Origin: Cephalotus follicularis
Taxonomy: Eukaryota; Streptophyta; Magnoliopsida; Oxalidales; Cephalotaceae
Direction: 5' to 3'
Assembly: GCA_001972305.1 (NCBI GenBank)
Contig: BDDD01000052.1
Location: forward strand, 530,143-594,142
Length of the DNA stretch: 64,000 nucleotides
This document shows, piece by piece, positions 2,426 through 61,953 of this stretch. The notes under the pieces were generated by a model. It worked only from the letters and a program-made list of their open reading frames with translations. It ran no database searches and had not been told where the DNA came from. Position 1 is the stretch's first letter. Each line of letters begins with the position of its first letter. The translations under genes were made by a program, and so were the position numbers.

Positions 2426-2564
2426 CACAGTGTTGACGTTGAGTCTCAATCCTAAGTTTTAATGATTACAAATTTGCATTTAATAAGTTTACTTGATGTG
2501 CAAGATATTCGAAAGCTTCACATAAGGCAAAAATCAACTGCAAGGAAAAGACATTAACCTCTAT

Positions 2565-3012
2565 TGCAAAAGACATTGACGCCTTTGATCCAGCAAAGTT
2601 ACAGGCCACTTTTGGTGAAAGACATCGATCCCTTTCAACAAACAAGTCGACGACTTTAGTGCCCAAAGTTACAGGTCAAAATTTAGTGAAGACATCGATC
2701 CTTACAAGAAAAGACATCGACGTCCGTACAAAAGACATCGATCCCTTTCCTAAGACATCGACGTCTTTCTAGACCAATCTGCCAAAGCCAAAAAAGACAT
2801 CAACCCATGAAGAAGAAGTCGATGTGATACTCATATATTCAAATGCCTGGACAGATTCCCAGAAAAGACATCGACGCTTATAAAAAGACATCGATGTCTT
2901 TTTAAATGATTGACCTGGGAAACACGGGACGACTAGTTAACGCACTTACAACGGCTAGTAACAGTCAAAGACATCGAAGCCTTTATGAAGACATCGACGT
3001 CTTTCTGCCAGC
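2565..3012 (+). repeat. TCGA-centred palindrome array (AAGACATCGATGTCTT type)
   Basis: At least a dozen copies or half copies of aaagacatcga / tcgatgtcttt occur. Measured GACATCG starts at 2713, 2734 and 2754, at 2867 and 2887, and at 2970 and 2990 give spacings of 20-21 bp. The sequence between copies is not conserved. The array ends about 85 bp before the TATAAATA box of this solo LTR, so it sits in the proximal U3. Confidence 0.9.
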
Positions 3013-3095
3013 AGAGACAAAAACAAAGCTGCATCAACAGACTTTTATGTCCAAAATGCCCAAGACTTTTGCAACGGCTATAATCTGAAGAAAGC

Positions 3096-3103
3096 TATAA
3101 ATA
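3096..3103 (+). promoter_or_regulatory. TATA box of the copia solo LTR
   Basis: TATAAATA follows the palindrome array and precedes an A-rich stretch (acaagccaagaaacaag) as expected for the transcription start of a copia LTR. Inferred from position and sequence only. Confidence 0.6.
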
Positions 3104-3662
3104 CAAGCCAAGAAACAAGATCAAAGTGACTTAAGGAACAAGTCTTGAACATCCAATCACAAAAACTCATCTTGCACATCCACAAACAAAAGAGAAAGAA
3201 CATCAAGCTATAGTTTACACTTTCATATCCAAAGCTTGTAACTAGCAATAACTTTCATATCCAACCTTTAAGAGGTTATTGTAAACACAAACCAATTCTT
3301 TTCATCCTTCATTGTAAAAGAGGGGAGTGAACCCTTGTAAGGTGTTTGATTGATTTGCACCCGGAATCCAAAATCAAGTGTAAGGTGGTTTGCTTTGATT
3401 TGCACCCGTAAGCCGCAAATCAAAGGTTGCTAGTGGTATCTAGTGGAATCTCAAGGGGTTCTTGAGAAAGTGGACGTAGGCACGGATTTTGCCGAACCAC
3501 TATAAATCGTTTGCACACTCTCTATCCCTTATCTCTTTACTCATTATTGTTTACTTGTTCTTGTGTGCTTGTTTATATTCATAGCCTTAATTTGTTAGTT
3601 TCGCAAACAAATTCTACTTAGTAATTAAAGGTTGCCATACATACAAATTTCCCAACACACAG

Positions 3663-4689
3663 CAATCCTCGAGAAGTTCTGAATGAACCTCCTGTAATAA
3701 CCCGCCAAGCCAAGAAAACTACGCACCTCAGTCACGTTTCTTGGTTGCGGCCAATCACGTACCACCTCAGTCTTTGACGGGTCCACTGCAAAACCTTCAC
3801 CAGACACTATGTGACAAAGGAAGATCACATGGTCGAGCCAAAATTCACATTTGCTAAACTTTGCGTACAGCCGATGCTCCCTGAGAACCTAGAACTCTAG
3901 TCTCATAAGGTAAGTGTGCTCCTCCTCACTCCTTGAGTATACCAGTATGTCATTAATGAACACCACGACAAACTAGTCCAGGTATGGGCGAAACACGTCA
4001 TTCATCGATGACATGAAAGCTGCTGGTGCATTGGTAACACCAAAAGGCATCACCAAAAACTCATAGTGTACATACCTCGTTCGGAAGGTAGTCTTCTCTA
4101 TATCACCTTCCTTTACTCTCAGTTGATGATAACCCGATCTAAAATCGAGTTCGGAGAACACTCTGGACCCTTACAACTGGTCAAACAAATCCTCGATGTG
4201 GGGTAAAGGATACTTGTTCTTGATAGTTTCCTTATTCAACATCCGGTAGTCGCAAAGCCTCATCGACCCATCTTTTTTGTTCACGAATAACACAGGAGCA
4301 CCCCATGAAGAAACACTGGGCCGAACAAAACCCTTATCAATCAGGTCTTGCAATTGTAACTTCAACTCTCGCAACTTCGCATGAGCCATTCGGTAAGGTG
4401 CCCTAAAGATAGGAGCCGTTCCCGGTACAAGGTCAATGACGAACTCCATACTCCTCTTTGGTGGTAAAGACCCTAAGTTTGCAGGAAACACATCTAGAAA
4501 TTCACTCACAACAGGAATTTCTTCAATACTCATACCTTCCTCCTTTCTGTAATCAATCACGTAGGCCAAATATCCTTCGCAGCCCTTCTCTAGATACTTT
4601 GACGCAAGAATGAAGGATATAATCAGTGTAGAAAAGCCCTTGTCTCCCTTGAATTGAAACGTCGTTCCATCAGGCAGACAAAAATCCAT
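3663..4689 (-). pseudogene. pol: Element A reverse transcriptase (broken)
   Basis: Gypsy RT domain read from 4689 to 3663. Motifs include [52 protein letters not shown] and [19 protein letters not shown]. The catalytic box reads FINDIL at about 3965-3948 instead of F(I/V)DDIL, so one metal-binding Asp is replaced by Asn. The LCIDYR motif has lost a residue (LCDYR). A stop lies after PYLD near 3975. The segment ends with [19 protein letters not shown] immediately before the solo-LTR insertion. Its catalytic failure is seen, not inferred. Confidence 0.9.
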
Positions 4690-4698
4690 AGTCTTATT

Positions 4699-6206: not shown

Positions 6207-6349
6207 TTGTTCCTATATGGAAAAGATGTCATTAGTAATCATCTCAAGGAACATTAGTCAATTGCCAAAGAATTCATTAGGTTGAATAGTTCCTTATCTA
6301 ATCGGTTGATTACCGAGGATAATATCCTAGCTAAGCATATATGGAATAT

Positions 6350-6361
6350 GCTCTGATACCA
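6350..6361 (-). other. Primer binding site of element A (tRNA-iMet type)
   Basis: The minus strand reads TGGTATCAGAGC, complementary to the 3' end of plant initiator tRNA-Met, three bases inside the 5' LTR. This fixes the orientation of the element. Confidence 0.9.
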
Positions 6362-7610
6362 TGCTATCACACCCCATTTTCCATAAACAGTATATATGGT
6401 AATGGCAATCAACATAAAACATTCAGCTTATGCAAAAAACCATGAAATTTAAACTTTTAAATCGGATAACATTGCGGAAGCATCTAAAACCATAAGCCGA
6501 AAAGCACGTAACGTGCATCCCATACTACACATCACCAAAATACATGTCTGTCATAGTTAAAAGCCCACAAAACGGAGCGTGATCAAAATACATTATCCAT
6601 CAACATAAACTTAGCCAACAAAAGTACGGTACATAACTTTCATTTATTACATACTAGCTCAAGAAAATCAAAAGAACATAACCCCAAATAAAACATTATT
6701 AAAACTTGTCCTTCGTCCATGCTGATCCATATCGGTGTCCACTGCATCAATTTGTAAAGCAGAGGGTTAGCCTTTGTCCTCACTTGGCTAAGCATAAGTG
6801 CAATTTGGGGTCAATATTAAAGGCATGTCATGTAATGTATGCATAGTGATGAAGTACAGTAAAATAACAGTTTATATGTATGTGAAAATATATATATATC
6901 AATAGTACAACAGTAACCCGACCAGGGCTACGTCATTAGTAACAGTGGTGTCCGTGAGGACCAGCAAATAGTATACAGTATGTACATAAAGGGACTAACA
7001 ACCAGTCACTCAGTACGAACAACGTCGCCAACTCCTAGCCCCACTACACACTCCTAACTTTGGCCCCGCCTCCGGACGGCACGAAGTAGGCCACAGTACA
7101 GTACAGTGAGTCACCCAGCTAACTCCTGGCCCCTAGGTCAACCCTGCCACTAGTCATTACTGGCAATCTCTGCCACGCAACTAGTACAGCGCAAACACAA
7201 ACACAACCCAAACACAGTATAGTCACAGTGCAAACACAGTAACAGTACAATTCAAGCAATTTTATAAAATAATTACTTGATCAAAATAAATCAGTTTACT
7301 TCAAGTCATTTAAAAATTACTTTAAATCATGCATTTCCATCTCATAGAAAATACTTTAACCAGTAACAGTATTGGGATTCATTCCCCAGTTTGTTAAAAA
7401 ATATGCATTTGTCTAATGTATATTTTCGTACTTAAATAATGATTTTCGAAATCATATAAGCATTTATAAAAAATTGAAACAATTTTAGAAACTAAACACA
7501 GTCAATAAACAGTAAGTATACAATGCATATAAATGCTCTAATGCACCCTAACTGACATCGGGATCATTTCGTATCGTTTAAGCGAGAATTATCCAAACAG
7601 TGTCTTAAAG

Positions 7611-7822
7611 CGTCGACGTTTAACCCTTAGGCATCAACGCTTATGTCCTCTAAGTGTCGACACTCAATCCTTAGTGTCAGCACTTTCCAATACCTTAGGC
7701 GTTGATGTTTACTCCTTAGGCGTCGACATTATAATGTAAAGCGTCGATGGTTCTCATGCATTTAGTAGCCATATCGCAATTTATAGTCCAAATCATCGAC
7801 GCTTATACCAGAGCTTCGACGA
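7611..7822 (-). repeat. TCGA palindrome array (GCGTCGACGC type), inner cluster
   Basis: About nine GCGTCGACGC-like sites occur, several decayed to TCAA or TTGA. Core positions 7613, 7634, 7657, 7677, 7703, 7723, 7744, then 7796 and 7816 give spacings mostly of 20-23 bp. Sequence between sites is not conserved. On the minus strand this cluster is downstream of the likely leader. Confidence 0.85.
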
Positions 7823-8380
7823 TTATGTTCACAGTTCGTCTTCTTTCTCACGATGCTACACAAACTGAGGACTCCCAACCATTGTACATGTAATTCGACA
7901 TGCAATATATCCAAGAAAACGACATGCAATGACAGATTACAGATCCGGTAAAACATGGCATTAATTCAGTGATAAAAAATAGTCCAAAAATCCATGCAAT
8001 CCACGCATAAACATCAATGATCAAACACTAAATATTGAACACAAAATACAATTATGGCTTCCCCTACCTCTGGCCTCAAGTTAGAAGCCAAAAGTCCACA
8101 ACTTCTAGTACCCAATCAGTCACTTTGAGCTCCCAGGTTTGACTTGAATGCTCCCAAGTTTGCTCCAGCAGTTGTTGTCCGAGCTCTAAGCTCTCCCTTG
8201 CTCAACAATGGAGTTTGAGCTTCTCTCTCTACACCTTCTCTGATTTTCTCTCACTCTCTGTGTTTCTCTCCAGTCTCCGGTTTCTCATTCATAGTAACAG
8301 ACGGAAGAGATGAGAGGAGCCGATTTTTATGCAGTTCCTTTTTGTTTTTCTCTACATGCATTCATTGATCCCCCACCCCC

Positions 8381-8407
8381 TCTCTCTCCCTCTCTCTCTC
8401 TCTCTCT
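8381..8407. repeat. CT microsatellite in element A LTR
   Basis: Simple (CT)n run with two CCC interruptions. On the minus strand it reads GAGAGA and lies between the two palindrome arrays, probably in the transcribed leader. Confidence 0.85.
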
Positions 8408-8640
8408 TGTGTAACCTGGTGCAACAGGTGTCCATTTCTTCCTTCTCCCAATTCATGCATGCTCAGAACCCCACTCCTATCTGCCTCTTTTCAGTCCTTC
8501 CCAGTCCTGGCAAGTCAGGCATCACATAGCATGCATTACACGTATCAAGATGCATGTGAAGGCGTCTGAAGGGTGGATTGAACATGCCCCCATGCGACAC
8601 GTTCACCTGCTGTTAGTGCGTGTCTGGAACAAGACACAAA

Positions 8641-8790
8641 GCGTCGACGCTTTCATTTAAGCATCCGTGCTTTGGTGTGTTGTACGAATTGCGTTGACAC
8701 GTATACTGTGCGTCGACGTTTTGGCCATTCATAAAACACGTGCGCATTTTAGTTTGTATGGCGTCGGCCCTTTGGTTTAAGGCATCAACG
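8641..8790 (-). repeat. TCGA palindrome array (GCGTCGACGC type), outer cluster
   Basis: Copies include gcgtcgacgc (8641), gcatccgtgc (8661), gcgttgacac (8691), gcgtcgacgt (8710), gcgtcggccc (8761) and gcatcaacgc (8782). Adjacent cores are 19-21 bp apart within pairs. It lies in the first 350 bases of the LTR on the minus strand, that is, in U3. Confidence 0.8.
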
Positions 8791-8983
8791 CTTAAGCCAT
8801 TTTTCTTCATTCTTTCAAAGTAAGGCAAAAGTTTAACATTTCTTTATGTACCCTATCTCAAAATCAGCATTATACAAAAGGGAAAACATCATCAAAGTCG
8901 GGATATCCGTCATTTTATTAATTTCACAATAAAATTACAATAACGTCATAAAATTACAATATAGGAAAATCTCGGGTGTTACA

Positions 8984-9140: not shown

Positions 9141-9486
9141 GCTTTAACATCTTTAATAATGAATAAATTGTGTAGGGCTATATCCTCTCATACTTTTAGT
9201 AGCTCAACAATTAGTAATAATTCAACCAGAGATAAAGAATTAGATGAAAGGATAAAACAATGGAAAAATTAGAAACCACCTAAGATTTCAAACAAAGAAA
9301 TTTATCAGTACAACCCATTTAATCGTTTTAATTTTACTGAAAGAATTCATACAATTAAACAAATAATAAAAATTACCAAAACATAACAGAATATCCAGTT
9401 ATTAGATGCTAAAACAATAAAAGAATTAGCTAAGTCTTTAAAATACATTCATTTTGCCTTAGTCCAAGTCACCATAAAACCGTTAA
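9141..9486 (+). pseudogene. Endogenous pararetrovirus movement protein relic, first part
   Basis: One frame from 9141 to 9486 has only two stops (near 9272 and 9388) in 115 codons. It ends with the segment KYIHFALVQVTIKPL, which resembles the start of the Caulimoviridae movement-protein domain (30K superfamily). Such proteins let virus genomes pass through plasmodesmata. The frame is cut at 9486 by element C and resumes at 19970. Family assignment is by motif recognition from the sequence; genus is not clear. No coat protein or RT of this virus is seen nearby. With its stops and the 10.5-kb insertion it cannot be expressed as an intact protein. Confidence 0.6.
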
Positions 9487-12350
9487 TGTAATACCCTGCT
9501 TATTCGTATGTGTTTTACGGACTTTTTATGTGTTCGTTTTGGGTTTTTAATATTGTTAATTCTAAATGTCCGGTTGCCCTATGTTTTGGGCCTATGTGAT
9601 TTGGACTGACTGATTCCAGTCCGAATTTTGGATGTGTTAATGCAATATTGGGTTTGGGTTTTTGATTTTATTTAATCAAAATTTTATATTATTAAAACAA
9701 TTAATTTTTATTTTAAAATCATTTTATTCCCTTTTATTTTATTTATTTTACTTATTTTTCCTTATTTTTCCTTTTTCTTTTCTTCCTTCTTTTCCTTCTT
9801 TCCTTTGTTTCTTCTCTTTCTCCCGAACTCACTCTTCTCCCTCATTATTTCTACATGGTGTAATCTTTGTTTCCACTCTAATTCCCTGGAAATCCTCTTT
9901 TCTTCCTTCTTGGTCAGATTTTGTCTCCTCTTTTCCCTTTTGGTGAGAGATATTCCCATTTTATATGTTACCTCCCTTTTCTACAAAGCCACTATCGATT
10001 CTGCATTGTTGGACTTGTTTGATCTGTTGTGGAGTCGTTTCATCAAGTTTGAGGAGGTAATCTCAGTCCTTTAGTTGTTCTTTTGGGTTGAATTCTTCTG
10101 GTTTGTTATGCATATTATGTATCTCCTTGTTTTGGTTTTCTTTGGCTTCCTTTTTGCACAGCCGGTTAACAAGTGTTGTGTAGTGCCCTTCTGCTATTTT
10201 CCGTGTTCTTTATACCATTACAGGTTAGTTAAATTCGTTCCCTACTGTGATGGTTTTGCTACAATGTTATAATTTTAGTTTTATGTTCTTACTGTCCCTT
10301 GGTTTTAATTCCTACATTTATATGTTTAGTCATAAGTGTTAGTAAGTCTGTTAACATGTTTGTTATACCTAGACTTGTCACAAACTGGTTTTAAAAGTCT
10401 GCAAATGATAATGGACAGGAATCTGGACATCATTGAATGCACATGTAAATGTTCTTCTTTCTTTCTCTTAAAGTTAAGCCATTGATCATCTTATTCTGTG
10501 TCAATTCTGTGTATCTATGTCATGTAAATGTCATATATGGTCATATATTTATGTCCTTGTGTCTCTGGCTTAACGTTGTACTCGTTTGAATCAGTTTCTG
10601 TATTGAAATTGTTAAGTTTCTGTTGTTCTGTCGTCCAGAACAGTCGAATATTCTTGTGGACAATCGGCTGGATTGGATGAGCAGTCGATTGCCATATGAA
10701 CACAGTCGACTGTCTTGGGTTGTGTAGTCAACTGGATCTATGTGCCAGTCGACTGCCTGCAATCTGGTTTGAGTAGTCGGCTGGCCCTTGTGATTAGTCG
10801 ACTACCAATCTTCCCCAGTCGGCTGGTGCTCTGTAACAGTCGGCTGTTTTGTCCAGAAAAGTGTTGTTTTCATTTGTTTTGATTCGTTTGTTCCTCTAAT
10901 CGATCCGGGTCTTTTGTAAACACAGTAATGAGTCTGTTTAATGTTTCTGATGTGTCTTAGACTCTTATATGAGTGTTTTTGGGTGTCTTTTAGATTGTTG
11001 TGCTTCAAGGAGGAGTTTGTTTTAAATCATCTATCCGTAAGTGCATTGTGAACGCATAAGTTACGGATCTTCGTTTCTTGATACCCTCATATCGGTTTTA
11101 CTGTAGTAAATAAATGATAGTTTTACTTTATGAATAATGTACGGATTTATATTGTTCCTTGGCTATCTGATTTTTAAAGTGAAAAAAGTTTTGCTTTATG
11201 CTATGCTTCTTCATTTATGAATTTGGAATTGTTTTATGATTTTCACATGTTTCGAAAACGAAGTTGGTTTGGACATTGTAAATGCTTCCGACTTTATTTA
11301 TATGATACGAAATGATACGATATGTTATGATCACCTCTTTATAGCGAAGTATAAATGAGTTGATGATTTGGTTATGAAATGTATGTTATGATACCGTTGT
11401 GAGCGGTTTCCAAATATGTTTTGTGAAAGCACACTTATGTGATTTTAAATTGATTTTGATAAATCAATATTTTTCAAATGATTGAATACTGAGTATTGTA
11501 CCCACCTTTGGGCGTACCATAGGCATGTCGTAGGACTGGCACAGGGACATGACACTTCCGTAGCGGTGTGATTAGTCTACGGCGTCTCTGAATGTTATGA
11601 ATAAATCCCATGAGGTGGATTTATGGATCCGCAATGTGCTAGAGACGTATGAATCAATTCTAGTATATGTTATGTGATCTGAAGTGTGATCATATATGTT
11701 ATATGTGAGAATTGACTTGTGTAGTGTCGTAGACTTCAATTGTAGTGGGCATGTGGAATTAACGCCTCCCTTGCCAATATATGATATGAAATGTGATATG
11801 TATGTGGCTCAGTATGATTCTGTGAATTGTGAAATGACATTTTGAAATATTTCGTAAATGTTTCAAATGATATGAAATTGGTATTTGAATATGATTAAAC
11901 TGTTTTAACTGCTTAAGATTTCCGTTATGAATTTTATTGAAATCTTACTTTTTTAATCTATTGTTTACTGTTTTATTCTCCCTTATCCATATTGAGGTTT
12001 GCTCAGCAGCGTTTTTGTTTTCCATGCGGCAGGTTATCGGGAGCAGCGGGGAAATGTGGGAATGAGAGATGACCACCCTATGTCTTTGGATCCCTAGGAG
12101 TGTGATCCCTGTGTTTTTATATCTAGTGGTTATAAACAATGATACTTATGTTTTTATGTTTTAAATTTTGAACTTAAACATGTTTTAAGTCTTTCCGAAA
12201 ATGCTTAATTGTTAAGTTTTAAGTTTCAATTATGATAAGACCGCCACATTTTGGCTGATATGTTATGTATATGATCAGATATGTTATGATACGTTATGAT
12301 AGGTTCTGTATTATGACCTGTGACGACTCCCGCCGTCCGGGGGTGTTACA
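9487..12350 (+). repeat. Element C 5' LTR
   Basis: Starts TGTAATACCC and ends GGGTGTTACA. A pyrimidine-rich stretch (9720-9960) probably belongs to the transcript leader. A palindrome array follows at 10641-10846. Beyond it the LTR has repeated ATGATA/GTTATGAT-like AT-rich tracts and a conserved tttgctcag...gcgtttttgttttccatgcgg block that is also found in element F. Confidence 0.92.
10641..10846 (+). repeat. TCGA palindrome array (CAGTCGACTG type) in element C 5' LTR
   Basis: Ten sites start at 10641, 10661, 10682, 10703, 10725, 10746, 10774, 10795, 10816 and 10837. Spacings are 20, 21, 21, 22, 21, 28, 21, 21 and 21. Variants are CAGTCGACTG, CAGTCGGCTG and one-base changes; the ~11-bp spacers are unrelated. 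Element F has the same 6+4 layout with the same 28-bp gap. Confidence 0.95.
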
Positions 12351-12355
12351 GATTG

Positions 12356-17106: not shown

Positions 17107-17118
17107 AGGGGGGGTGGA
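17107..17118 (+). other. Polypurine tract of element C
   Basis: aggggggggtgga directly before the 3' LTR start at 17119; the upstream ttcaggacgaaatctt is the usual gypsy pre-PPT context. Confidence 0.85.
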
Positions 17119-19964: not shown

Positions 19965-19969
19965 GTTAA

Positions 19970-24925: not shown

Positions 24926-24932
24926 TTATATA
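24926..24932 (-). promoter_or_regulatory. TATA box of element D 3' LTR
   Basis: The minus strand reads TATATAAG about 45 bases after the last palindrome. The matching position in the other LTR is 33375-33382 (TATATAAT). Confidence 0.55.
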
Positions 24933-24975
24933 CTTGTGCTTCCAATGGATCTAATTTTAAAGTTCTGGTACAATC

Positions 24976-25487: not shown

Positions 25488-25651
25488 GATTGCCCTGTAC
25501 CTGCAGAAATAGCCTTTTGCAAACTTTGGACACAAGATCAAGTGAGTATATGAAGTGATAGCTCAGATAATTATGCATACAAGTAATATATGTTTGTTAA
25601 TCATCGAAATAACATATGTTAATGCAATTAACGGGGTGGTAAAGGCTAACA

Positions 25652-39133: not shown

Positions 39134-39137
39134 GAGA

Positions 39138-45012: not shown

Positions 45013-46880
45013 AATTTTGAGGACAAAATTTCTTAAGGTGGGGAGGATGTAAAGCCGCGTAGCTATTTTGAAGCCTAAGAAAAACTTTTTCTATGGGGTA
45101 TAATTTTTGTTTTATGGGCTTTGGACTTATTTGAGCAAGAGAGGAAAGTTAAGTGTTGATTTTGTTATAAGCCCAAGTGTAAAGTGTGATTAGAAATAGT
45201 TGGAGGACTTTTATCCAAAGCTTGTTGAGGAAGATTCCAATTTTCAAGACTTATTATGGCTTAAGTTGGGATTAGTGTGGAGATATTTTGAGTTTTTGCT
45301 ATCCTTTCTTCTAGCTTCAGCAGGTTAGAGAGTTTTAGAGAGAGAGTGTGTGTTCTAGTTTTCTCCTTCTTTCCATTCTTAGCCCCTGGACCAGTGGGAG
45401 CTTGAAGCGTCCGACCCCAGCAAGAAGAACAAGCGGTCAATGAAAGAAGCAGTCAAGCCAGAGGAAGAGCGTAGCAGAAAAGAAGAGACGTTAGTGTCAC
45501 ACCCCGTTCATAGAGAACGCAACATTAAAGCGGTAAAGGCAATTAACATAAAATACAGCTCATGCGAAAACCATAAAATTTAAAACTTTTAAACAAACGG
45601 TCAGTTGCGGAAGCATAACGAGTTCATAAGCTGTCAACCGTAACGTGCGTCCCATACCGCACGCTACACAAATACAAGTCGTTAAGTTAATCGCCCATAA
45701 AACGGAGCGTGAAATACAGTACAAGTTTGAATTCCTTCAAGAACAGAACCATAATAACAGTACAACTCAAAAGCATAACCATAACAGGTTTGATACACAA
45801 CAGGAGAAGTAAAATCAAGAATACAACAACTGGATCTTCGCCCATGGTAGCTTGGCCGCTCCACGCATCAATCTGAAAGGTAGGGGGTTAGCCTTTGTCC
45901 TCACTCGGCCAAGTCATAACAGTAAATCGGGATCAACATAATGCATGTCATGATATGAATGCATAAATGATGCAGTACAGTGGAGACCCAGTTTATACAT
46001 ACATGAAAAATATATGTATATGTATATCAGTACAGTAAAATATCAGTGATACATATATAAGAAATATACGTATGCAGTAACAGTACAGTGGTAACCTGGC
46101 CAGGGCTACATCATTAAACACAGTAATGTCCGTAAAGGACCAATAAACAGTACAGTACAGTATGTCCGCATAGGACCACAACAACAGTCAGTACAGTATG
46201 TCCGCATAGGACCATGACAACAGTATGTCCACATAGGACTACAACAGGCAGTATGTCCACATAGGACCACAACAACAGTATATAACCCCGCCAACTCCTG
46301 GCCCCACGCTACACTCCCACTCGGGCCCCTACATCAGGCAACCGAGCGAGGCAACAGTACAGTGAGTCACCTAGCCATGCTCCTGGCCCCTAGGTACAAC
46401 CCTGCCACTAGTCATCGATGGCAACCTCCGCCACGCAACTAGTAGCTCAAACACAAACACATAGCAATTCACAGAGCACAGTGAATTCAAACAGTAACAG
46501 TACAGTAAACAGTGATGATCGATTAGATCGACAACAGGCAGTTGTTTTCCCAAAATGTTTCCAAAATGACAACATTTGAAAATAGACATTTGCAGTAGGA
46601 AATATCAATAGACGGTTTCAGTAGTGTAAATTGTTTATCCGTTCCATCGAACATACGTCATTTTATTAATACATATTTTCATACTCAAAACATCCTATTC
46701 CGAGTTCATATATGCATTTCCAAATAACAATACTTATAAATCATCAACAATTCACAATCAGTATACGAACAAGCAATAAACAGTGCATATGTAATGCATA
46801 CATATGCTCAAATGCATCCTAATAGGAATCGAGATCATTTCGTATCATTGGATGAAGAAAACCCCAAACAGTGGCAAATA

Positions 46881-47203
46881 CGTCGACGTCTTTCCCAAAG
46901 GCGTCGATGTCTTTTACGTCAGGCGTTGATGTCCAGGTGTCAGTGTCAGCGCGTTCCTCCACAGAAGGCGTCGATGTCATTTAATACGCGTCGACGCTCA
47001 AGGTCTGGATCCTTGAAACGACAGCGTATTGTTGATGGCGTCGACGCGTTAAGGTAGGAACCTTAGGCATCGACGTCCTCCATGTCTAATTCCAGGTAGG
47101 TAGCCTAGGGCGTCGATGTCTTTCCATGGGCGTCGATCCCTTTCAATCAGTAACAAGGCAAAACTTAAAAGACGTCGACGTTCGTTACAAAGACGTCGAT
47201 GTC
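46881..47203 (-). repeat. TCGA palindrome array in the solo LTR, inner cluster
   Basis: Cores at 46883, 46904, 46926 (TTGA), 46946, 46971, 46991, 47041, 47070, 47113, 47133, 47175 and 47196. Most adjacent spacings are 20-22 bp. The flanks read ACGTCGACGTCTTT or GGCGTCGATGTC, intermediate between the element A type and the Athila type. Confidence 0.9.
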
Positions 47204-47964
47204 CTTTTCAACAGCAGTCGTCTTCTACCTCGCGACTTAACAGACAGTGGCCTTAACAACCCATAATCATGCATAACAACAGGTAGACAAGGCAAGGAGC
47301 TAACATGCAGATACTCAAAACATATCTAGCACATCATAGCATCAATCCAGTAACAATAACATTCCAAGAATCATGCATTTGTACATCCAAAATCATAAAC
47401 CATGCATGGGTATCAAACTCGAATTTACAGTATGGCTTTCCCCTACCTTTTGTTCCAAGTTAGGAACAGGAAGGTCCACCTCTTTTTGTTTCCAACAGGT
47501 CACAGGAGCTCCAAGATCCTTCCCGTTGCTGCACCAGTGGTTCCAAGCTCCAAGCTCTAAGTTCAACAATGGTGGAAATGTTTCCTCTCTTTAGCTCTCT
47601 GTTTTCTCACGCAAGTGTCTCAGCCGAACCAGGGATGAAGAGAGGAAGCGTTATATGCAAGTAGGACCTCTCTCTTTCCTCTCTAATCCATTGCATGAAC
47701 TAACAGTTCCATTTTCCCATCATCCCTCTTTCCCAGTTCTGTCCCGTTTGTTTTGCAGGAACAGGCATTGAAGGTGGCACCATGGCCTGCATGCACACCC
47801 AAGTGTCATGCCCTTCCTTCCACACTGATACATGCATGACTGGTATCACCTAGCATGCACAACACGTATCCATCATGCCCCAAGGCGCCTGCCAAAGGCT
47901 CAAAACCAGACTTCCTTGCACGTTATTTATCAGAAAAGTAACATGCATGGCTTTCGAAGTTAAG

Positions 47965-48080
47965 ACGTCGCCGTCTTTCCAAAGATGTCGATGTCTTCGT
48001 CCGGGTCGATGTGCATGTGCATGCAGCTACGTGCGCCATTCTGCCTCAAAGGCGTCGACGTGATCCAAAAAGGCGTCGAC
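47965..48080 (-). repeat. TCGA palindrome array in the solo LTR, outer cluster
   Basis: Cores near 47968 (TCGC), 47988, 48006, 48055 and 48076. The pair spacings are 18-21 bp. Sites read gacgtcgccgtctttc, gatgtcgatgtctt and ggcgtcgacgtg. Confidence 0.85.
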
Positions 48081-49523
48081 GTGTTTTCCCCAGAACAACG
48101 TCGTTTAAGCCCTTGAGCATTCTTTTAACATTTAACACAACAATTCCACATTATAGAGATAGAAAAACATCACCAAATTGGAAAAATCCATCCTTTATTA
48201 ATTCCACAATTTAAAAGTACAAAGACATTGTGAGATTATAATACATGAAAATCTCGGGTGTTACAGTTAGCGTCCAAGGAAGTAGCAAGAACTGTGAGTG
48301 GGACAACCTTTCATGGTTTCTAATTGTTTCATGATGTTCTTGATAACTCATTCAGTTTTCAATTTCCAGTACAGTGAGAGCTTTTTAACGGGAATTTGTT
48401 TCCCTAGCGTCTCTGTATGTTTTCATTGACAGAAGAAAGAGAGAGAGTTTCCGAGCACTAGAGCTCAAGTTTCTCCAAAATGAATTAGTCACTTTCCAAA
48501 GAAGGTAATGCGTATGTGCTCAACCCCACTCCTCGGCCTACTATTGTCTATGATTGGAAGTTGAGCGAGTCTGCCCCCAGGTCCTACCTGGATCTCCTTT
48601 ACACTACTGTCTATGATGGTGTTTAGGGTTTGAGTGCAGCCGAGCACTATGTACATAGCTCCAACCTCCTTGGTCTACTATTGTCTATGATGGGCAACCA
48701 AGCGAGACTGTCCCTAGGTCCTACCTGGATCTCCTTTAAACTATTGTCTATGATGTTGTTTAGGGTTTGAGTACAGCAGAGCTAAGTTGCCAGAATATAG
48801 ATTAGAGCCTTTCAGTAAGTCTTCTAGAGGAGGACTTTGTCCTCGACAGTCACGCCTTCAGTTCAGCGGAGGACTTTGTCCTCGGCAGTCATGCCATCAG
48901 CTCAGATAAGTAAGTAAAGAAAAGAAATAGCAAGCTCAGAGGAGAACCATTGGTTCTCGACAGATACTGCCAAGCAGGCTTCAGCCTAGATCAGCTCAGC
49001 TCAGGCCACTATAAGTTGGTAACTATATTATGTAAACAGCAAAGCAAAGCATAGCCCCGGGCATGTTTTAAGTTAAGCTGTGCGTTTTGTGGTTTAGTTT
49101 AGATGTGAAGTGAAGAGGAGAATTGACCCGAGGACAAGGAGTGTCCCCGGGCATGTTTTGTCTACAGGCGGTTAAGTGAGCTCGTGAGTTGCACATGTGT
49201 GCTCTCCCCGGGCATGTTGTTGCGCATTTATCCCAAGCCTTCTCCTCGGGATTTTTGCGCGATAAGTTAAGTGATCTTGTGAGGAGCACGTGGGTGTTCT
49301 CCTCGGGCATAAGTGATGCGGCGCGTTTTGGAGCTTGGGTTAAGTTGTGCTAGGACACAAGCAGGAGAGGAGTTGGATCCTCTACCCCGGTTGCCCTGTT
49401 AGCTGCATGTCCAGTCCAGGCTTTCTCCTTGGGCAATTTTAGTTTGAGAGGGTTATTGGCAAGTGGAGCGCCATCCCCGGTAGGACACTTGTCCCATAGT
49501 TAGAGAGGGAACGGGTCCTGACA

Positions 49524-52768: not shown

Positions 52769-54201
52769 CTTTATGTGGTATTCCCGATATAACTCTCATA
52801 TTGATATGACGTGTTTATTGGTTGTATATTCATTTTACCTCTACAGATATATCCGTTTGGCTCCCATGGATATATATTTGTTTCCTTTGCTGTTGTTATA
52901 TTGATTCTATTTCCGTATCTTCATACTTGAACTCACGTTGGTGGCATCTTTGATTTATACCTATCTATTGTTGGAAATTGCCTTTGTATGAGCTATGTGC
53001 TTGTGAGTGGGACATTCCCTTCTTTTACTTTATTTGTTTTTGAAATTCCTTTGTTGTGATATGTGCCCTTTGGATGTTCTTGTGATGGTTTGGAGGCCGT
53101 AATTGTATTTGATTCCTATATTCAATTTATGTTATTGTGACAATCATTTTATCATTGTTGAGATATCTTGATGCAAATTTATGATTATTTCTGGTTCTGG
53201 GTGATAATGTCAGCTTCCCATATGTGCATTATTGTGAGATTATGCTTTGTATTTTTATGATGGTACCATTGTGATGTTGCTTACACATAGGCCAATCGTA
53301 CGAGGTGGGGAACGTGTCTCTTACATGTGGGCCCATCGTATGGGGTTGGGTATGTGTTGCTTACACACAGGCCCATCGTAAGGGGTGGGGTGCGTGCCGC
53401 TTACCTTTGCATTGTGCACCAGTTTCTGAAGTATGATGTACCCATACTGTAGCCTAATGGCCTATCATTATCATTACTATTATTATCTGATGATGACATT
53501 ATAGTTATACCAACATCTCCATATATTGTGTTTTTATGTGGGCACATATCTGGATCATATTTGTTGATCACATTTGCGGGTCTTGATTGTATTATGTACC
53601 TTGATTTCATAGTGATTCTTACTTATACTCGTTGAGCTCTTTCCTTGAGCATTGAGATTGTATTGTGAATTTACATTATTATCTACCTTGTGTTTATAGC
53701 CATGTTCAGATTATTGCTCATTTTATTCTTTATATTTGAGCATTCTTTCTGCAAAGCCATTTGTTGAGATTGAGATTCCTTTTAGTGGATGCATATTTAT
53801 TCATACGTGGGAAATTTTGTGGATTCTATTATATTGTAGAGCCCATTTATTGAGTATCGACATTCCTGTGGATCTTGTTTATATCTATGCATCCCATTTG
53901 TTGAGATATGAGTTTTCTTTCAATGGCTTTGCAGTTTATTCATCCTTGGGCATGTTTGTGGATCTTGTTTATAGTTGTGGAGCCATTTTTTGAGTGTCGA
54001 GATTCCTTTTTCGTGGGTTGACCTTCGTGTATCTCGTTTACATTTGTGGAATTCGTTTATATTTGTGTATCTCGTTTATGACACGACGCGTCCCTTCAAG
54101 CAGTATCCCGACAGAACGAGCCGTGCTTTACTACAAGTACTAACTACGCACACCAAACAACGGATTTTGCAGAGAACAGGGTGCTAAGCGCCGAGGTCTG
54201 C
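52769..54201 (+). other. Outer repeat, last part
   Basis: Noncoding, T-rich DNA with a 40-bp minisatellite (53281-53400) and imperfect ~110-bp repeats between 53740 and 54060 (phrases ttgttgagattgag, tgtggatcttgtttata). It ends at the LTR that starts at 54202. No gene is seen. Confidence 0.5.
53281..53400 (+). repeat. 40-bp minisatellite, three units
   Basis: Units start with ttaca at 53281, 53321 and 53361 (a fourth ttacc at 53401), each with gcccatcgta and ggggtgggg-like phrases. The content (gcccatcgta, ggggt) recalls the 36-bp array at 23136, but the units are not the same. Confidence 0.88.
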
Positions 54202-54780
54202 TGTCACACCCTGTTTCATTGACCACATAAAGGTCATGGCAATTTAACATAAATATTTAGCTTATGCAAATACAGTTAAAACTTTAAATACCAGTAACAT
54301 CTTGCGGAAGCATTTAAATATAATCTGAAAATAAACCGAATCATGCTTCCCATACCACATGATTCCGTCATTTGACTTTAACAAGTCATTATTAACTGCC
54401 CACAAACGGAGCGTGATCAAAGTCGATTAACATCATTAAAACATTAGTACAGTAATCCAAAATCAAACGTGTCTCAAAACATGGTTTAACATTGATTTTA
54501 ATCAAATAAAGCTCCATCTCCCCTTTGGTTCGGTCGCGCATGGTCGATATCCATATCACTGCATCAATTTGTAATAGTAGGGGGTTAGCCTTTGTCCTCA
54601 TTCGGATAAATCATAAGTGTAATTTAGGGTCAATGATAATGAATGTCATGTAGTGAATGCATTCGTGATGCAATATACCATATATCACAATACATATATA
54701 CATATATGTATCTATGCCAATATGTGCAACCATGCCAAGTGGCCACAACCATCAGATCATCAATCACGTCTCACTAGACA

Positions 54781-54815
54781 ATCAAATCAAATCAAATCAA
54801 ATCAAATCAAATCAA
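54781..54815. repeat. AAATC microsatellite
   Basis: Seven pentanucleotide units atcaa/aatca in tandem. Confidence 0.93.
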
Positions 54816-55370
54816 CTGTACGAAGAGCACCACCATCTCCTGGCCCCGACGTCGTACTCTTACTCCGGCCCCCGACTCCCGGGTCACGAAGCAAGGCAAC
54901 ATATCAGACTCATGATGCTCGCACTCTGTGTTCAGCAATCATGGTACCCGGTGTTACTTGCACTCAGTGTTTAGTAACATTGTATTTGGGCGTCCCTAGC
55001 CTTCTCTTGGCCCCTAGGTGAACATCCCCGCCACCAGCCATCGGCGACACTCTGTCACCCTAGCCAGTACGGCATCAATCACAATCAACAAATCAATTCA
55101 AATCAAATCGTTTCCAAGTAGTTTATAAAATACTGGAAATAATACATTTATTTTAAAATGTATTGCATCTTTGAAACCATGTTTCAATCCGTCGAAAACA
55201 TACATTTAACAAAATATACATTTTCATATCAAATAAGGATTTGTATAAAATCATGTACACATTTCTAAAATGAATAATACACTTTAGAATCATTCGCATT
55301 TCAATCATCAATTCATTTCATATCAAAATATGATGCAAACGTATGCTCAAAATGCAAGTCAGTCCCTCAA

Positions 55371-55855
55371 CAGTCGGGTACTCCTTCATGACAGTCGGCT
55401 GTTTCCTCATGACAGTCGGCTGTTTCTTTTAAACAGTCGGTTGTCCCAGATTTGGCAGTCGGCTGCCTCCCTCAACAGTCAGCTGTCTCATGTTTGACAG
55501 TCGACTGCTCGCATAACAGTCGGCTATCTCCTCAAGACAGTCAGCTGTTTCATGAACAGTACGTATCTTCTACATCGCCACTCAACCTAGCATTGCCACC
55601 TCAGCGAATCCAGGTAAAGTGACACGTGCACAGTCGACTGTCGTCCTAGATAGTCGGCTGTGCCATCAATCAGTCGACTGCCTTCGCTTGGCAGTCGGCT
55701 AATCACTCAGCAGGAGAAAATCTCCATTAAAACGCATGAATAGTCGACTGGCTCCTTAGCACAGTCGGCTGTTTCCTTTGAGCAGTCGACTGTTCGCACG
55801 GAACAGTCGACTGATAGGCTTAGGCAGTCGGTTGTCCTCTTTGGACAGTCGGCTG
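55371..55855 (-). repeat. TCGA palindrome array (CAGTCGACTG type), inner cluster
   Basis: About 20 sites. Starts are 55371, 55392, 55413, 55434, 55456, 55476, 55498, 55517, 55538, 55557; then 55631, 55651, 55671, 55692; then 55741, 55762, 55783, 55804, 55825, 55846. Spacing is 19-22 bp, most often 21. Longer gaps separate the groups. It is the largest array in the window. Confidence 0.96.
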
Positions 55856-56402
55856 GTCCTCCACGCAGCGTACAAAAGTAGTAGAAAATACTTGCAATCA
55901 TCAATCCAAATCCAAACACAATAGAGCATTTATAAACATCAACACATTTCATGCTCTTATCACAGTCCATTGCATGCATTTCATTAAAAACGTCCATTAT
56001 AACGGAACTTAAATCACAATTATGAAATTTCCCCTACCTTTGAATTCCAAGTTAGGAATTGCAATCCACCTCTTTAAGTTCCAAATCCGAAGCGTTCAAA
56101 GCTTCCAAATCTGTCCAACGACTCCAGCAGGGCTGACTCTCCCACTGGTGCGAGTCTCCATGCTTCCGGTCCAAGCGCGGAGCACTCTGGCTCAACCTCT
56201 TTCTCTCTTTTCTTCTCCTTTCTTCCTCACAACTCTCTGTCTCTTGGATTGCTGATGGGAAGAGGAGAGAAAATGTGTTTTTATGGAGAAAAAAATTGCC
56301 CCTCTCCCTCATCTCTTTCTTTCTATGCCGGCACAACCCTTTAAAATCACTTTCCATTTGTCATGCCAGGTCTGGCAGCACGTTATGCTATCTAACCCGT
56401 GG

Positions 56403-56433
56403 CAGTCGACTGCCCCAACTTGGCAGTCGGCTG
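56403..56433 (-). repeat. TCGA palindrome array, outer cluster, truncated
   Basis: Two sites at 56403 and 56424 (21 bp apart), immediately before the insertion point of element H. The CT-rich probable leader (56195-56330) lies between this and the inner cluster, as in the other family members. Confidence 0.85.
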
Positions 56434-56679
56434 TTGTAACGACCCGAATTTCCATTAAATATATTAATTAAGGAAAGATGATTTGCTATTGTGTAGTTGG
56501 GAAATATTTCAAGCGACCCGTATTATGACCCTACGCTCGGGGGGGTTTGGGGGTTCTGCTTCTAGGTGAGTGGATGGGGGGTCCTGCCACCTAGGCAGTA
56601 GGCAGGGGCTCGGGGGCAGTGCCCCCGAAAGAAAATTTAAATTGGTTATTGCTTTGGATTGGAAATTCTGGCTTAAACG

Positions 56680-56822
56680 CCGACGGTTCCAAGTAAAGAG
56701 TCGACGCTTTGGAGGCAATCGACGACGCTCCAAATGTAAGCTTCGATGCTTCTAGATCAAGTATTAAGGTTGAACTAGACGAGACTTAAAGCGGCGACGC
56801 TTTGTTGGAAAGCGTCAACGCT
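56680..56822 (+). repeat. TCGA palindrome array (GCGTCGACGCTT type) in element H LTR
   Basis: Sites: acgccgacggtt (56678), gagtcgacgctt (56698), aatcgacgacgct (56717), cttcgatgctt (56741), gcggcgacgcttt (56791) and gcgtcaacgcttt (56812). Spacings of 18-24 bp; a further gtctacgcttt lies at 56886. All are about 250-450 bp upstream of the TATA box. Confidence 0.82.
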
Positions 56823-57130
56823 TTAGTCGGGATAAAATTTGGAGAACTCAGAATAAGCCCGTGACGGGCGACGCCTAGGGATAAAGAGTCTACGCTTTGC
56901 CATGTGTCAGGTGCAGAATTCTAGTTTTTTGTCCCGTTTCGGAGGATTTAAATGGATTGTGGGACACATGTCAAGCAAGGGAATGAAAAATTATGTTTTT
57001 CTACTGGAAAGGGGCAGGTGGCATCATTGGATTGGATGGAATTCCATCACATGGGCAACTAGGACGCAAACTCACATGGGTGAGGTCATGGATGACACCA
57101 TGCAAGCTTGGCCTCCAAGTTTGCCTCTCC

Positions 57131-57138
57131 TATATATG
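57131..57138 (+). promoter_or_regulatory. TATA box of element H LTR
   Basis: TATATATG preceded by cctctcc, followed within 60 bases by a GA-rich leader. Assigned by position. Confidence 0.5.
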
Positions 57139-59089
57139 TATGTGTAATTTTAGCTTAGCAATGGTTAGTTTTCTGCTGAGTTTGGAGAGGAGAATTCGTG
57201 GGAGAGCAAGAGAGAAGGAGATCAAAGTGAGGTAAGGAAATTCTATACCCATTTTATCGAAGTTATTCCTCTGTTTTACTTCCAAATGATATAGCATATA
57301 GTTTTATCCATATCTCTCTCATTTCTTGATGAAATTTCAAATGGTTTAATGTTTTAGAAACTTCAAGATGTCTACTTTAACTTTTATGTTTTTTTCTTCT
57401 CGAAATTATGTCTACTTATTGATGAGAATCTATGTTTCATTCTACTGCTCATGCTCTGTTTTCATATAGAAGCTTTGACTTTAAAAATTCACAACGAATT
57501 CGATTCTCAACAAATTTTTATGATCTTGAGCTTTCTGAATTCGTAGAAATGTCTACTTTAATATTACAGTTTTAAGTTTTCTATGAAAGTGATTATTTCT
57601 ATATGAAATATATATTTTATAAAAGTTAAGCAAAGTTGTTTATAAATGTTTTTGAGTCAATTACTCAAAGTGATGAGAAATGTTTTATGATTGTGAAATG
57701 AACGTTTCTAGATGAGAAACCAGTTTTAGAAATGTTTTACAATGATGTTTTATGAATTCTTTGAGCTGATCATTCAAGGTATTAAGGAAGATGAAGAGAA
57801 ATGTTTTATGAATGCATTTGAGTTGAGTACTCAAATGAAGAGAAATGTTTTATGAATGCATTTGAGTTAAGTACTCAAATGAAGATAAATGTTTTATGAA
57901 TACTTTGAGTTGGTCACTCAAAGTATTAAGAAATGTTTTGTGAAATGAATGAACAACTACTTCATTGCGATCCAGTAAGGATTAATCTAGTAAAAGATTA
58001 AGGAATGAACTACCCTTGGATTGCAATCCAAGGGGAATGGAGCGAGATTCTCAATGTTAATAGATCCGAGCGTGCTCACGGACATGCATGTGATATAAGG
58101 ATAGTAATCGGGGAGTGCACCATGCGCCGGTGAAGCGGTGTGAAAGGGTTCATTAAAGGTTCATGACCATTAAGTTTTATGAAATGTCCTGTTTCATGAG
58201 ATATGAACAGAAAAAGAGTTCTAAAGATGTTTTATTTATGAATGTGAAGAAAATGATTTTACTGATGTTTTCCAGTATGGTTGTGATACAAGCCAAAAGA
58301 AGGTATGACTGGAAAACATTTTTGACTTTTTTCAAGTATGACAGTGTTATACACCAGAAAACGTATGATGTTGAAACGTTTTGATATAAATGATCAAAAA
58401 CAATGGATCTCGATAACGTTTTATGACTATGTTTCTTACTGGGCTCTTTAAAGCTCACTCCTTTTAATATCTTGTTTTCAAACAAATCTTCTAGGAAACG
58501 TTGAACGTGAAGTTGCGAGCTTTAGAGGAAGTTCGCAAATAAAGTGTAAGGAAAGGAAGTATGATATGCTATGAAGTTATGTTTTCATGTCATATGTTAA
58601 TGTTTTCCGTCATGTAGCGTTTTATGATAAACGATGTATAGATGTTAAAGTAAGTAAATGAATGCTATAGGTTATGATGTTTTTATGTAAGATGATGATA
58701 TCAAAAGTTATTGAACATACTTGAGAGCATGAGAAGTTAATGGTAAAGGTGAGTATATGATTGTTTTATGATGTAATAAGTTTATATTTTTCCGCTGTGT
58801 AAGGTTACATGTTAAGTGTTGTACAAATGCAAAAGTATTAGAAACGATTATGATAATAACAATATGATATCTTTGAAATTTGGTGTTCAAAGATGTTAGC
58901 ATATGTGATTCTGTGAAGTTATTGAGTAATAATGTTAGGTTTTAAATCTAAGTTAAGATTAAATGATATGAAATGGATCGTTAAATGGTTAAATGATTTG
59001 ACGGTCAAAGGTCACACCCATGTAACGCACCGATTCCTCGAGGCTCGCTTTGAGCATAAAGTGGACTCGGGTCGGGGGCGCTACAGTAA

Positions 59090-59599: not shown

Positions 59600-60110
59600 C
59601 GACTTAAGACGAAGTCGCGGTCAAAGAAGGAACGTACCGGTCAATGAAGAAGAACCGTTTGCGTGGCAACATCTGAAAACCTTTTCGGAGTGACGTATCC
59701 TTTGGAGACCGAAGTATGGATCCATGGAAATTAAAAGATCTTCAGAGCGATGGATTGTACCGATCGTCAGAAGGAACAGTTTCCGTTTGAAAAGATAGAA
59801 GGAGAAGCATATCGACGGTGGGACATGACTGAGATGACGAAGACACATCGGGAGTTATAAGCGATGACGTGGGAAAAATTTAAGGAAAAATTTATGGACA
59901 AATATTTTCCTCAGCCGATGAAGGATAAGATGGAAGAGGACTTTCCTCAATTGGGACAAGGTAAGTCTGAATCGATAGCTCTGTACGAGGCGAAGTTGCA
60001 AGGTTGTCTCGATATGCGGCTCACATGGTGTCAACGGAGCAAAGAAGAACGAATAAGTTTTGCAAGGGTTTGGAACTCAACGTTCAAAGGTTGTTGATGG
60101 CGTAGGATCC
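59600..60110 (+). pseudogene. gag: Element H gag remnant
   Basis: A short frame (59864-60097) shows MTWEKFKEKFMDKYFPQPM, then LGQGKSESIALYEAKL, the core of a gypsy capsid. Upstream, 59600-59860 has other capsid-like phrases broken by stops. The C-terminal capsid, zinc knuckle and protease are not found. Confidence 0.75.
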
Positions 60111-60379
60111 GCAAACCTACGAAGCGGTGTTGATGGATGCAATAATCCTAAATACCAGCAAAAGTGAAAGGACCAAGGACAGGGAAAGATGAAGGTAGGT
60201 GAATCATACTAGTGTTGATTGGTATAAGAAGAAGGATAAGTTTCGATAACCAATCAACCGGAGTTGTTTACCAGGGAACAAAAGTTAGTAAATCCCTAAG
60301 TTTCATATCAGCAATCCAGGCTGGATGATTATTGAAAAGCGACTCCGAAGGTTGCCTTACTTAGGTGGTAAACACTAAG

Positions 60380-61255
60380 GAAGAAAGAATGAAGATGGAA
60401 GATGTTCACATGGATAAGGATTTTATGGATGTGTTTCCCGAAGATCTACCGGCTATACCGCTTGATAAAGAGTTAGAGTTTGCAATGGCCTTAGTACCCG
60501 GAATGACTCCAGTTTCAAAGAACTCTTATCGTATGATGCCGACTGAGTCAAAAGGATGAAAGAATCAGTTGTAAGAGCTTTGGATAAAGGACTTATCCGA
60601 CCAAGTGTATCACCATGGGATGCACCGGATTGGTGTGTAAGGAAGAAAGATGGGACAATGAGACTCTGTATCCATTGTCAAGGATCGATGATCTGTTTGA
60701 TCAGTTTCAGAAGGCTCGATATTTCTTAAGGTTCGACCTTGGATCAGGTTATCATTAAGAAAAATTTCAGAAGGAAAATGTACCGGAAACTATTTTCTGA
60801 ATGAGATACGGTCATTACGAGTTTTTGGTAGTATCATTTGGATTGACAAATACTCCAACTGCTTTTATGAAATTGATGAAGAGAGTGTTCAGCAATTGTT
60901 GGGCCAGTTTGAGATAGTTTGATTGACGACATTTTGGTATACTCCAAAAGTCAAGTGGAGCATAAAGAGCATTTGACCAATGTGTTGCAAACATTGAGGA
61001 GGGAACAATTGTATACTAAGTTCAGTAAGTGCAAATTTTGAATGAAGGAAGTATCCTTCTTGGGCCATGTAATTTCAAAAGAAGGTATTTTAATGGTCCC
61101 TGATAAGACTATGACAATGAAAGAATTGTAAAGACCAATGTTGGAAGCAGAAATATGAAGATTTCTTGGATTGATAAGCTACTACCGAAGGTTAATTGAA
61201 AGTTTCTCTCGCATTGCAAACCCTCTCACAAGGGTGACACGGAAGAATGGTCTGA
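60380..61255 (+). pseudogene. pol: Element H reverse transcriptase remnant
   Basis: A frame at 60365-60559 has DFMDVFPEDLPAIPLDKEL and [15 protein letters not shown] (RT start). Later pieces in shifting frames are [13 protein letters not shown], [42 protein letters not shown] and FLGLISYYRRLIESFSRIA. Stops and a missing segment around LCIDYR (60660) show advanced decay. It ends at the insertion of element I, at the same RT/RNase H junction region where the solo LTR cut element A. Confidence 0.85.
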
Positions 61256-61465
61256 TCAATTGTTTAGCATAAAAATGTGTGATTTTTAATTATATATTTG
61301 TTATATTTTTATGCTTGGAATAGACTACTTTGGTTGTGTTTTAATGATTTTCAGGTACAAGTGTTTAATCACCAGAGTGCAAGAATACTACCCAAAAGTG
61401 TGCAAAATTGGAGTTAAAAGTGTAAAGATTGAAGAAATGCCAAATTCTGCAGAAAACAGGGCAAA

Positions 61466-61857
61466 GAAGTCGACGTCTTTCAAGAAGAAGTCGACTCCTT
61501 TGCTGGTTTCATCAAAATGCATCGATGCCTTTCATACGAGTCAATGTATTTTCTGGGTTTATAGAATCACGTCGACGCCCTTCCAGATGAAGTCGACGTC
61601 TTTTCTGGGCAACACAACAATCTTCAAGGAGCTATGAAAGAGAAGTCGATGTCTTTCCAAAAGAAGTCGACGCTTTTCATGCAGACCGACGTCTTTCACA
61701 GAACACATCGATGTCTTTAAGCGAAATTGTCCTGTAACTTTTGACATAAAAGACGTCGACGCCTTTCAAGAAGAAGTCGACGCCTTTCTCTCGCATATCA
61801 GCAAAGTCGCGATTTTTACACAAAGAAGTCGACGCCTTTCCAAAAGAAGTCGACGTC
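61466..61857 (+). repeat. TCGA palindrome array (AAGTCGACGTCTTT type) in element I LTR
   Basis: TCGA or near-TCGA cores at 61470, 61491; 61522, 61541; 61572, 61593; 61646, 61667; 61686, 61708; 61756, 61777; 61829, 61850. Paired spacings are 19-22 bp, mostly 21. Flanks read aagaAGTCGACGTCTTTcc. The array ends about 90 bp before the TATA box. Confidence 0.94.
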
Positions 61858-61945
61858 TTCTTCTGCAGCAGAAATAGAAAGTTCAGATTTTTACCATATT
61901 TTGTAACTAGGATTACTTTTATTCCGTTTTTGATCAACTTAGTAG

Positions 61946-61953
61946 TATATAAA
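61946..61953 (+). promoter_or_regulatory. TATA box of element I LTR
   Basis: TATATAAA in the context tagtatataaacaatgc, downstream of the palindrome array. Confidence 0.65.

Follow-up and report, generated by a model that had tools for sequence, protein, structure and literature searches.

Long terminal repeat (LTR) retrotransposons of unrelated lineages in Cephalotus follicularis carry arrays of short, nearly palindromic DNA sites, and copia and gypsy LTRs share the motif classes of these arrays. They were studied in a window of 64,000 nucleotides (contig BDDD01000052.1, positions 530,143 to 594,142, here C52:530143-594142) and in the remainder of the assembly. The arrays are real and widespread, and they look selected. 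We interpret them as probable cis-regulatory modules, maintained by selection, that belong to LTR promoters and, in a copia element, to the promoter-like region serving an extra open reading frame (ORF); they would be bound by a dimeric factor encoded either by the host or by a transposable element (TE). From the sequence evidence presented below, this reading is given a probability of roughly three in four.

Three motif classes with a common GTC|GAC-like centre were distinguished. The consensus of class M1 is AAAGACGTCGACGTCTTT, with variants, that of M2 is CAGTCG(A/G)CTG and that of M3 is AAAGCGTCGACGCTTT. With at most one mismatch allowed, 78 M2 sites were found in the window, including 28 exact copies of CAGTCGGCTG and 19 of CAGTCGACTG. 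Their centre was TCGG in 43 cases, TCGA in 28 and another word in 7. A preliminary description of this DNA had reported palindromes centred on TCGA, which proved too strict: since 43 of the 78 sites are centred on TCGG, many M2 sites are quasi-palindromes. Three of the four sites at 33499-33562 read TCGG. The coordinates given in that description were recovered, with sites starting at 33499, 33520, 33541 and 33562 and from 55741 to 55846, in steps of 21 bp. All 28 asymmetric exact M2 sites of the window read on the plus strand, whatever the direction of the element. Mixed orientation was found inside arrays at loci L007, L012 and L017.

Exact 21-bp pairs of TCGA occurred 17 times in the window, against a mean of 0.41 and a maximum of 2 in 100 dinucleotide shuffles. 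Neighbouring sites lay 20-22 bp apart in 50 of 69 M2 distances and in 28 of 53 M1/M3 distances, the latter being measured on 60 of 81 called sites that were kept by hand after isolated sites had been dropped. Flanks of the 78 M2 sites carried no more than 0.38 bit per position (1.05-2.0 bit in the core); at least for M2, the spacers are unrelated, as previously stated, and do not look like homologous spacers of one satellite.

The genome-wide signal expected from the preliminary description was also present. Among 286 protein matches to an ORF of the window, the 120 listed are all from Cephalotus follicularis. In the assembly (G000; 1.577 Gb, 9,746 contigs), the exact 21-bp pair CAGTCGACTG-N11-CAGTCGACTG was found at 25,896 sites (reversed control: 89) and the 20-bp pair CAGTCGACTG-N10-CAGTCGACTG at 8,471 (reversed control: 36), counts that represent copies of TE families and not independent origins. 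A sample of 20 stretches of 10 kb, one from the beginning of each of 20 other scaffolds (200,000 bases in all, 17,167 of them N), contained 51 TCGA pairs at 20-22 bp, whereas 100 shuffles gave a mean of 3.72 and a maximum of 8. Among 4-mers seen more than 50 times in this sample, GTCG and CGAC displayed the highest excess at 20-22 bp and TCGA ranked fourth. Strictly scored arrays numbered 12, in 8 of the 20 stretches (none in three shuffles), and 11 of them were of a single class. Scaffold starts may be repeat-rich, so four mid-scaffold stretches were added as a control; two of these contained strict arrays. Looser scoring yielded 21 arrays in 14 of the 24 stretches.

The same M2 sites occur in a copia element, D, and in a gypsy element, C. 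Element D (24450-34080, minus strand) encodes copia gag, integrase and RVT_2. Its 3' LTR (24450..25651) has an M2 array at about 25048-25487 and a TATA-like box near 24925; its 5' LTR (BLAST-matched part 32900..34080) has one at about 33425-33916, with a primer-binding site, TGGTATCAGAG, near 32827. Element C is a Tekay-like chromovirus on the plus strand, with M2 arrays at about 10640-10846 in its 5' LTR (9486..12351) and 18263-18469 in its 3' LTR (17118..19965). Pfam recovered gypsy gag, RVT_1 and a Tf2-1-type SH3 domain in it, together with a Chromo match just below the cut-off. The layout shared by copia and gypsy lineages and the 21-bp step, which had been proposed beforehand, are supported both by the motif counts and by the following comparison of rates.

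Selection on the arrays is suggested by the unequal conservation of motifs and spacers. A Tekay-like LTR homologous to those of C carries an M2 array, F (37393..37597, plus strand), in which 10 of 10 sites occupy the same positions as in the C 3' LTR; identity was 86/99 in motifs and 54/103 in spacers (p = 1.2e-7, which like the other p values given here is a guide only, since the sites within an alignment are partly dependent on one another). F and L007 were identical at 86/99 motif and 41/102 spacer positions. Likewise, the M1 array (about 2546-3004) of S, a copia-type solo LTR at 2431..3657 (plus strand, CACAG on both flanks), gave 201/234 in motifs and 124/170 in spacers against L012, and 187/236 and 122/195 against L009, while L012 and L009 gave 201/234 and 130/171. 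Motif identity also exceeded spacer identity in the other between-element pairs, except in two of the six that involve L008.

The two LTRs of one element are identical at insertion, and the differences accumulated since then showed the opposite bias. Identity between the two LTRs was 90/100 in motifs and 101/106 in spacers for C, and 156/170 and 310/321 for D; pooled, 24/270 motif and 16/427 spacer positions differed (p = 0.007), and the contrast between within- and between-element comparisons reached p = 1.1e-4. Both contrasts stayed when CpG columns were removed (between elements, 69/79 motif against 54/103 spacer; within, 71/79 against 101/106). Within elements, motif changes were mostly transitions (9/10 in C, 9/14 in D). 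Since motifs decay faster than spacers after insertion, they are not mutationally cold, and would instead have been kept while the elements were active.

Classes differed between LTRs that are otherwise homologous. LTR A (6330..8983, minus strand) is Tekay-like and lies beside a gypsy-type protease and a stretch 71% identical in DNA to the reverse transcriptase region of C; H (45500..48265, minus strand), also Tekay-like, and T (54120..56434, minus strand) are homologous to it. Each contains two arrays, of like class within the LTR: M3 in A (about 7606-7825 and 8637-8794), M1 in H (about 46875-47206 and 47960-48086, with 2 M3 among 14 calls) and M2 in T (about 55391-55855, the second array being a single pair at 56402-56433). 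H, with its 12 M1 and 2 M3 sites, was the exception among 12 LTRs or internal regions of the window, the other 11 being of one class. A similar situation was encountered among copia LTRs. S and an LTR of L001 (1703-2780, minus strand) share their first 53 bp (94%) and 569 bp near the other end (85%), yet their arrays, M1 and M3 respectively, do not align; a third copia LTR, also in L001, carries M2 and has 418 bp near that same end in common (82%). In C and F, by contrast, class and site positions were both kept. Most simply, these differences would reflect exchange of the array as a module, with the LTR frame around it conserved.

Sites of D were not confined to its LTRs. An extra ORF with a PF20167 (Transposase_32) match and a basic N-terminus follows pol (26404..27531, minus strand), and an M2 mini-array of three called sites lies upstream of it (27648..27720, minus strand). 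All 124 tblastn matches to this ORF family in the window fell in D, and C had none. The family is abundant in the genome: a first look gave 12,072 candidates, and the 107 that were scored all matched, at 83-100% identity and many with stops. Upstream regions were compared in 20 sister copies picked by hand from the 107 (protein identity 83-94%). At least two M2 sites were present in 20 of 20, and none in five mononucleotide shuffles; 15 copies had four sites and the others two or three, the usual steps being 21, 19 and 22 bp. A telobox-like AAACCCTA was also observed upstream of the extra ORF in 19 of the 20 sister copies (L025-L044) and in L001.

A diverged relative at L001 has a PF20167 ORF, read in two pieces, that is preceded by six M2 and two M1 sites. 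Its nearest listed protein is P0093 (83% identical), itself 66% identical to that of D. The upstream region is partly homologous to that of D and, for this reason, its array is not independent evidence. The L001 element (contig C1, 4378-10000) is of copia type, with gag (Retrotran_gag_2) and the PF20167 ORF; no pol domain was found between them among plus-strand ORFs of at least 120 aa, and the element may be non-autonomous, with the extra ORF retained. For the D protein (P0001), the structure model had a predicted local distance difference test score (pLDDT) of 37 and was unusable, with a C-terminal helix; a sequence search of PDB gave three weak matches, the best to PilJ (E = 0.0027). Pfam found no DNA-binding domain in the four family members scanned.

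Two further arrays complete the window. U is the start of another LTR (TGTAACGACCCG; 56435..57260, plus strand), with an M3 array at about 56673-56898 and a TATA-like box near 57131. I is an M1 array in an LTR-like region (61462..61860, plus strand; TATA-like box at 61946), part of which recurs as a 229-bp inverted copy at 1-229; this region, which we take to be Athila-like, yielded by Pfam only an aspartyl protease. The lineage labels of the preliminary description are right provided that its D denotes the copia element with RVT_2 at 24450-34080 and its F the Tekay-like LTR at about 37.4 kb, a correspondence that we infer. Under one scoring, the LTRs of D had 16 and 14 sites, T 19, H 14, I 11, those of C 7 and 9, and F 8. 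As judged by eye, about 40-120 bp separate the end of the array from a TATA-like box downstream of it in S (box at 3096), D, I and one L001 LTR. The 3' part of S is common to D and to LTRs in L001. A matching LTR-like pair at 41282-43407 and 48297-49523 was devoid of called TCGA arrays and may belong to an array-free element. Tandem duplications were recorded at 63603-63928 (exact, 163 bp) and 20266-20661 (190 bp, 86%); tandem repeats of short period occupy 23132-23367.

Each array, as we picture it, is a run of near-palindromic sites in which one site mostly follows the next at about two helical turns. Neighbouring sites would be bound cooperatively by a DNA-binding factor that acts as a dimer, or by related factors of one family that prefer different flanks, and this binding would switch the element on or keep it unsilenced. 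The same factors would serve unrelated lineages, and the class of an LTR would change by exchange of a whole module. That the arrays bind such a factor had been suggested in the preliminary description, and both the motif counts and the motif-to-spacer rates argue in its favour. Two variants differ in the nature of the binder. In one, for which the odds are slightly under even, TEs recruited a family of host transcription factors whose members prefer different flanks, the arrays acting as enhancer sites in the way that ONSEN recruits heat-shock factors (PMC12859917). Arrays common to copia and gypsy are consistent with this, as is the finding that D alone in the window matches the extra-ORF family (124/124); moreover, the available part of the Tnt1 account describes a U3 regulatory region that differs between subfamilies while the remainder is conserved (PMC1838419). 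A stable host factor alone would, however, leave repeated class changes unexplained. We know of no host family that binds all classes, which also counts against this variant. The G form of M2 contains GCCGAC, the core of the dehydration-responsive element (DRE), which is absent from M1, M3 and the A form of M2; the DRE/CBF core was rejected as the identity of the arrays, fitting only that one form.

In the other variant, the PF20167 ORF of D-type copia elements encodes a VANC-like protein that binds the arrays, including that of its own promoter, and is exploited by other lineages. It is favoured by the M2 array, the class of the D LTRs, upstream of the ORF in D and in all 20 sister copies, by the six M2 and two M1 sites of the L001 relative, by the number of family members (12,072 first-look candidates, 107/107 scored copies matching) and by the L001 element, in which gag and the PF20167 ORF were found with no pol domain between them in the plus-strand ORFs covered. 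The basic N-terminus and the C-terminal helix of the poor model would also fit, and a nuclear signal is predicted for an Athila protein of sunflower that contains a PF20167 region (PMC11728184). Yet the four members scanned lack a Pfam DNA-binding domain, the model has a pLDDT of 37, C has no match to the family and the L001 upstream region is partly homologous to that of D, so that we consider this variant doubtful. Its fuller form, in which the product is a dimeric TE-encoded factor that recognises the arrays and protects both the element and its own gene from silencing, with copia and gypsy sharing and swapping target classes, is judged unlikely; if true, unrelated retrotransposons would have anti-silencing specificities as a currency in common, spread over tens of thousands of sites in 21-bp steps. 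The upstream array of the extra ORF and the class changes would fit a TE-encoded factor. A host factor is nevertheless placed somewhat above it, because only D in the window matches the extra-ORF family and because Sireviruses without ENV, according to the available text on them, also have repeated-motif (RM) boxes (PMC2829016).

Explanations that dispense with a regulatory factor were found less convincing. A function in RNA, the arrays forming hairpins or serving as sources of small interfering RNA (siRNA), appears improbable: the M1 array of I folds better than its shuffles (z = -3.86, 0/100), but the M2 array of D does not stand out (z = -0.99; 18/100 shuffles fold equally well), and a role at the DNA level accounts better for the location beside promoters and for the regular spacing. 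Palindromic Sirevirus LTR regions are reportedly targeted by siRNA (Bousios, 2016). It is very improbable that the arrays are targets by which the host marks TEs for methylation. The sites do bear CpG and decay faster in situ, mostly by transitions (9/10 in C, 9/14 in D); TEs would then be expected to lose them, yet conservation extends across lineages. An origin by tandem duplication, as a minisatellite with a period of 21 bp and decayed spacers, would account for the regular period and for the 28 exact asymmetric M2 sites of the window that all point one way. It is hardly credible, as motifs and not spacers are conserved between lineages, motifs decay faster after insertion and orientation is mixed inside the L007, L012 and L017 arrays; we rejected it on the motif and spacer rates.

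Several observations weigh against the arrays being selected binding modules. Helical phasing of longer gaps is weak: for gaps above 25 bp (18 M2 and 22 M1/M3), fit to a 10.5-bp turn gave R values of 0.50 and 0.38, and nearby periods fitted at least as well. The earlier statement that the palindromes face the same side of the DNA can thus be kept, at best, for neighbouring sites. Class purity depends on the threshold, since looser scoring produced single stray M3 calls in D and L012, and 4 of the 21 loosely scored arrays were mixed; the class concordance within A, H and T rests on three cases. In L008, a relative of C, only 3 of 10 sites persist in the aligned stretch, and motif identity is 0.59-0.66. 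The 20 sister copies form one family (median 87% identical) and are not independent origins. TATA-like boxes were called by eye, and site columns were picked by similarity to the consensus, which introduces some bias towards motif identity.

Comparisons with known systems are drawn from the parts of the cited accounts that were available. The closest system is formed by the RM boxes of Sireviruses (PMC2829016). These palindromic motifs number 8 to 32 per element and lie for the most part in the LTR's upper half, a short way ahead of the TATA box; further copies precede the 3' ENV gene, and the flanks diverge. The location on the promoter side of the LTR and upstream of a 3' extra gene is common to both systems, the layout having been known before from Sireviruses. 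D further resembles Sireviruses by several features: TTGGTATCAGAGC beside its 5' LTR corresponds to the Sirevirus primer-binding site TATCAGAGC; the polypurine tract AGGGGGAG occurs in two exact copies before the 3' LTR (26124 and 25661); the polyC-rich CACCCCCCCTCT was seen by eye near the end of the 5' LTR; and additional motif copies precede the 3' extra ORF, as in 20 of 20 sister copies. Its RVT_2 domain places it in copia only, and its extra ORF is PF20167. At the scoring used above, S (6 sites), A (7) and U (4) remain below the Sirevirus minimum of 8. The RM boxes were reported as specific to Sireviruses and absent from classic copia elements, a restriction that does not hold for the Cephalotus arrays, since they also occur in the Ty3/gypsy LTRs of C, with the same classes across superfamilies. 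The Vitis RM is CGGTCGACCG and that of Tnd-1 is ACAATCGATTGT; the Cephalotus core GTCG(A/G)C (GTCGAC or GTCGGC) lacks the CGG-CCG signature, as does Tnd-1. The 21-bp step, class exchange and contrast of within- and between-element rates do not appear in the available part of the Sirevirus account.

VANDAL elements, in the parts of their accounts at hand, are DNA transposons in which YAGTATTAY-type motifs form tandem-repeat arrays; binding was shown experimentally, and the anti-silencing VANC6 has an effect on AT9TSD1, a TE unrelated to it, as well (PMC5735166, PMC10398659). Short motif arrays in noncoding TE DNA, with motifs that differ between related TEs (here A/H/T and S/L001), are common to both cases; the Cephalotus arrays, unlike those of VANDAL, belong to LTR elements. 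Tnt1 likewise shows U3 turnover; palindrome classes common to unrelated lineages are not described in what was available on it. The MAIN/MAIL1 'DOWN' motif CATGCAGTTT, found in the MORC1 promoter and in host-gene promoters (PMC7156037, PMC9899485), is similar as a promoter motif tied to TE-derived plant mobile domain proteins; being a different sequence, it was rejected as the identity of the array motifs. A literature search, mostly without subscription papers, yielded no report that we recognised of these motifs being common to copia and gypsy. What is new here are the gypsy lineages, the shared classes, the 21-bp step, the module exchange and the rate contrast. Palindromic LTR motif arrays are extended from Sireviruses to gypsy lineages, and a single genome displays class differences between homologous LTRs in the form of an exchanged module. 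The arrays also provide a concrete and very abundant DNA bait for finding the putative factor. A TE-encoded binder would bring LTR retrotransposons within the range of sequence-specific anti-silencing, and a host binder would show that unrelated TEs converge on the same regulators.

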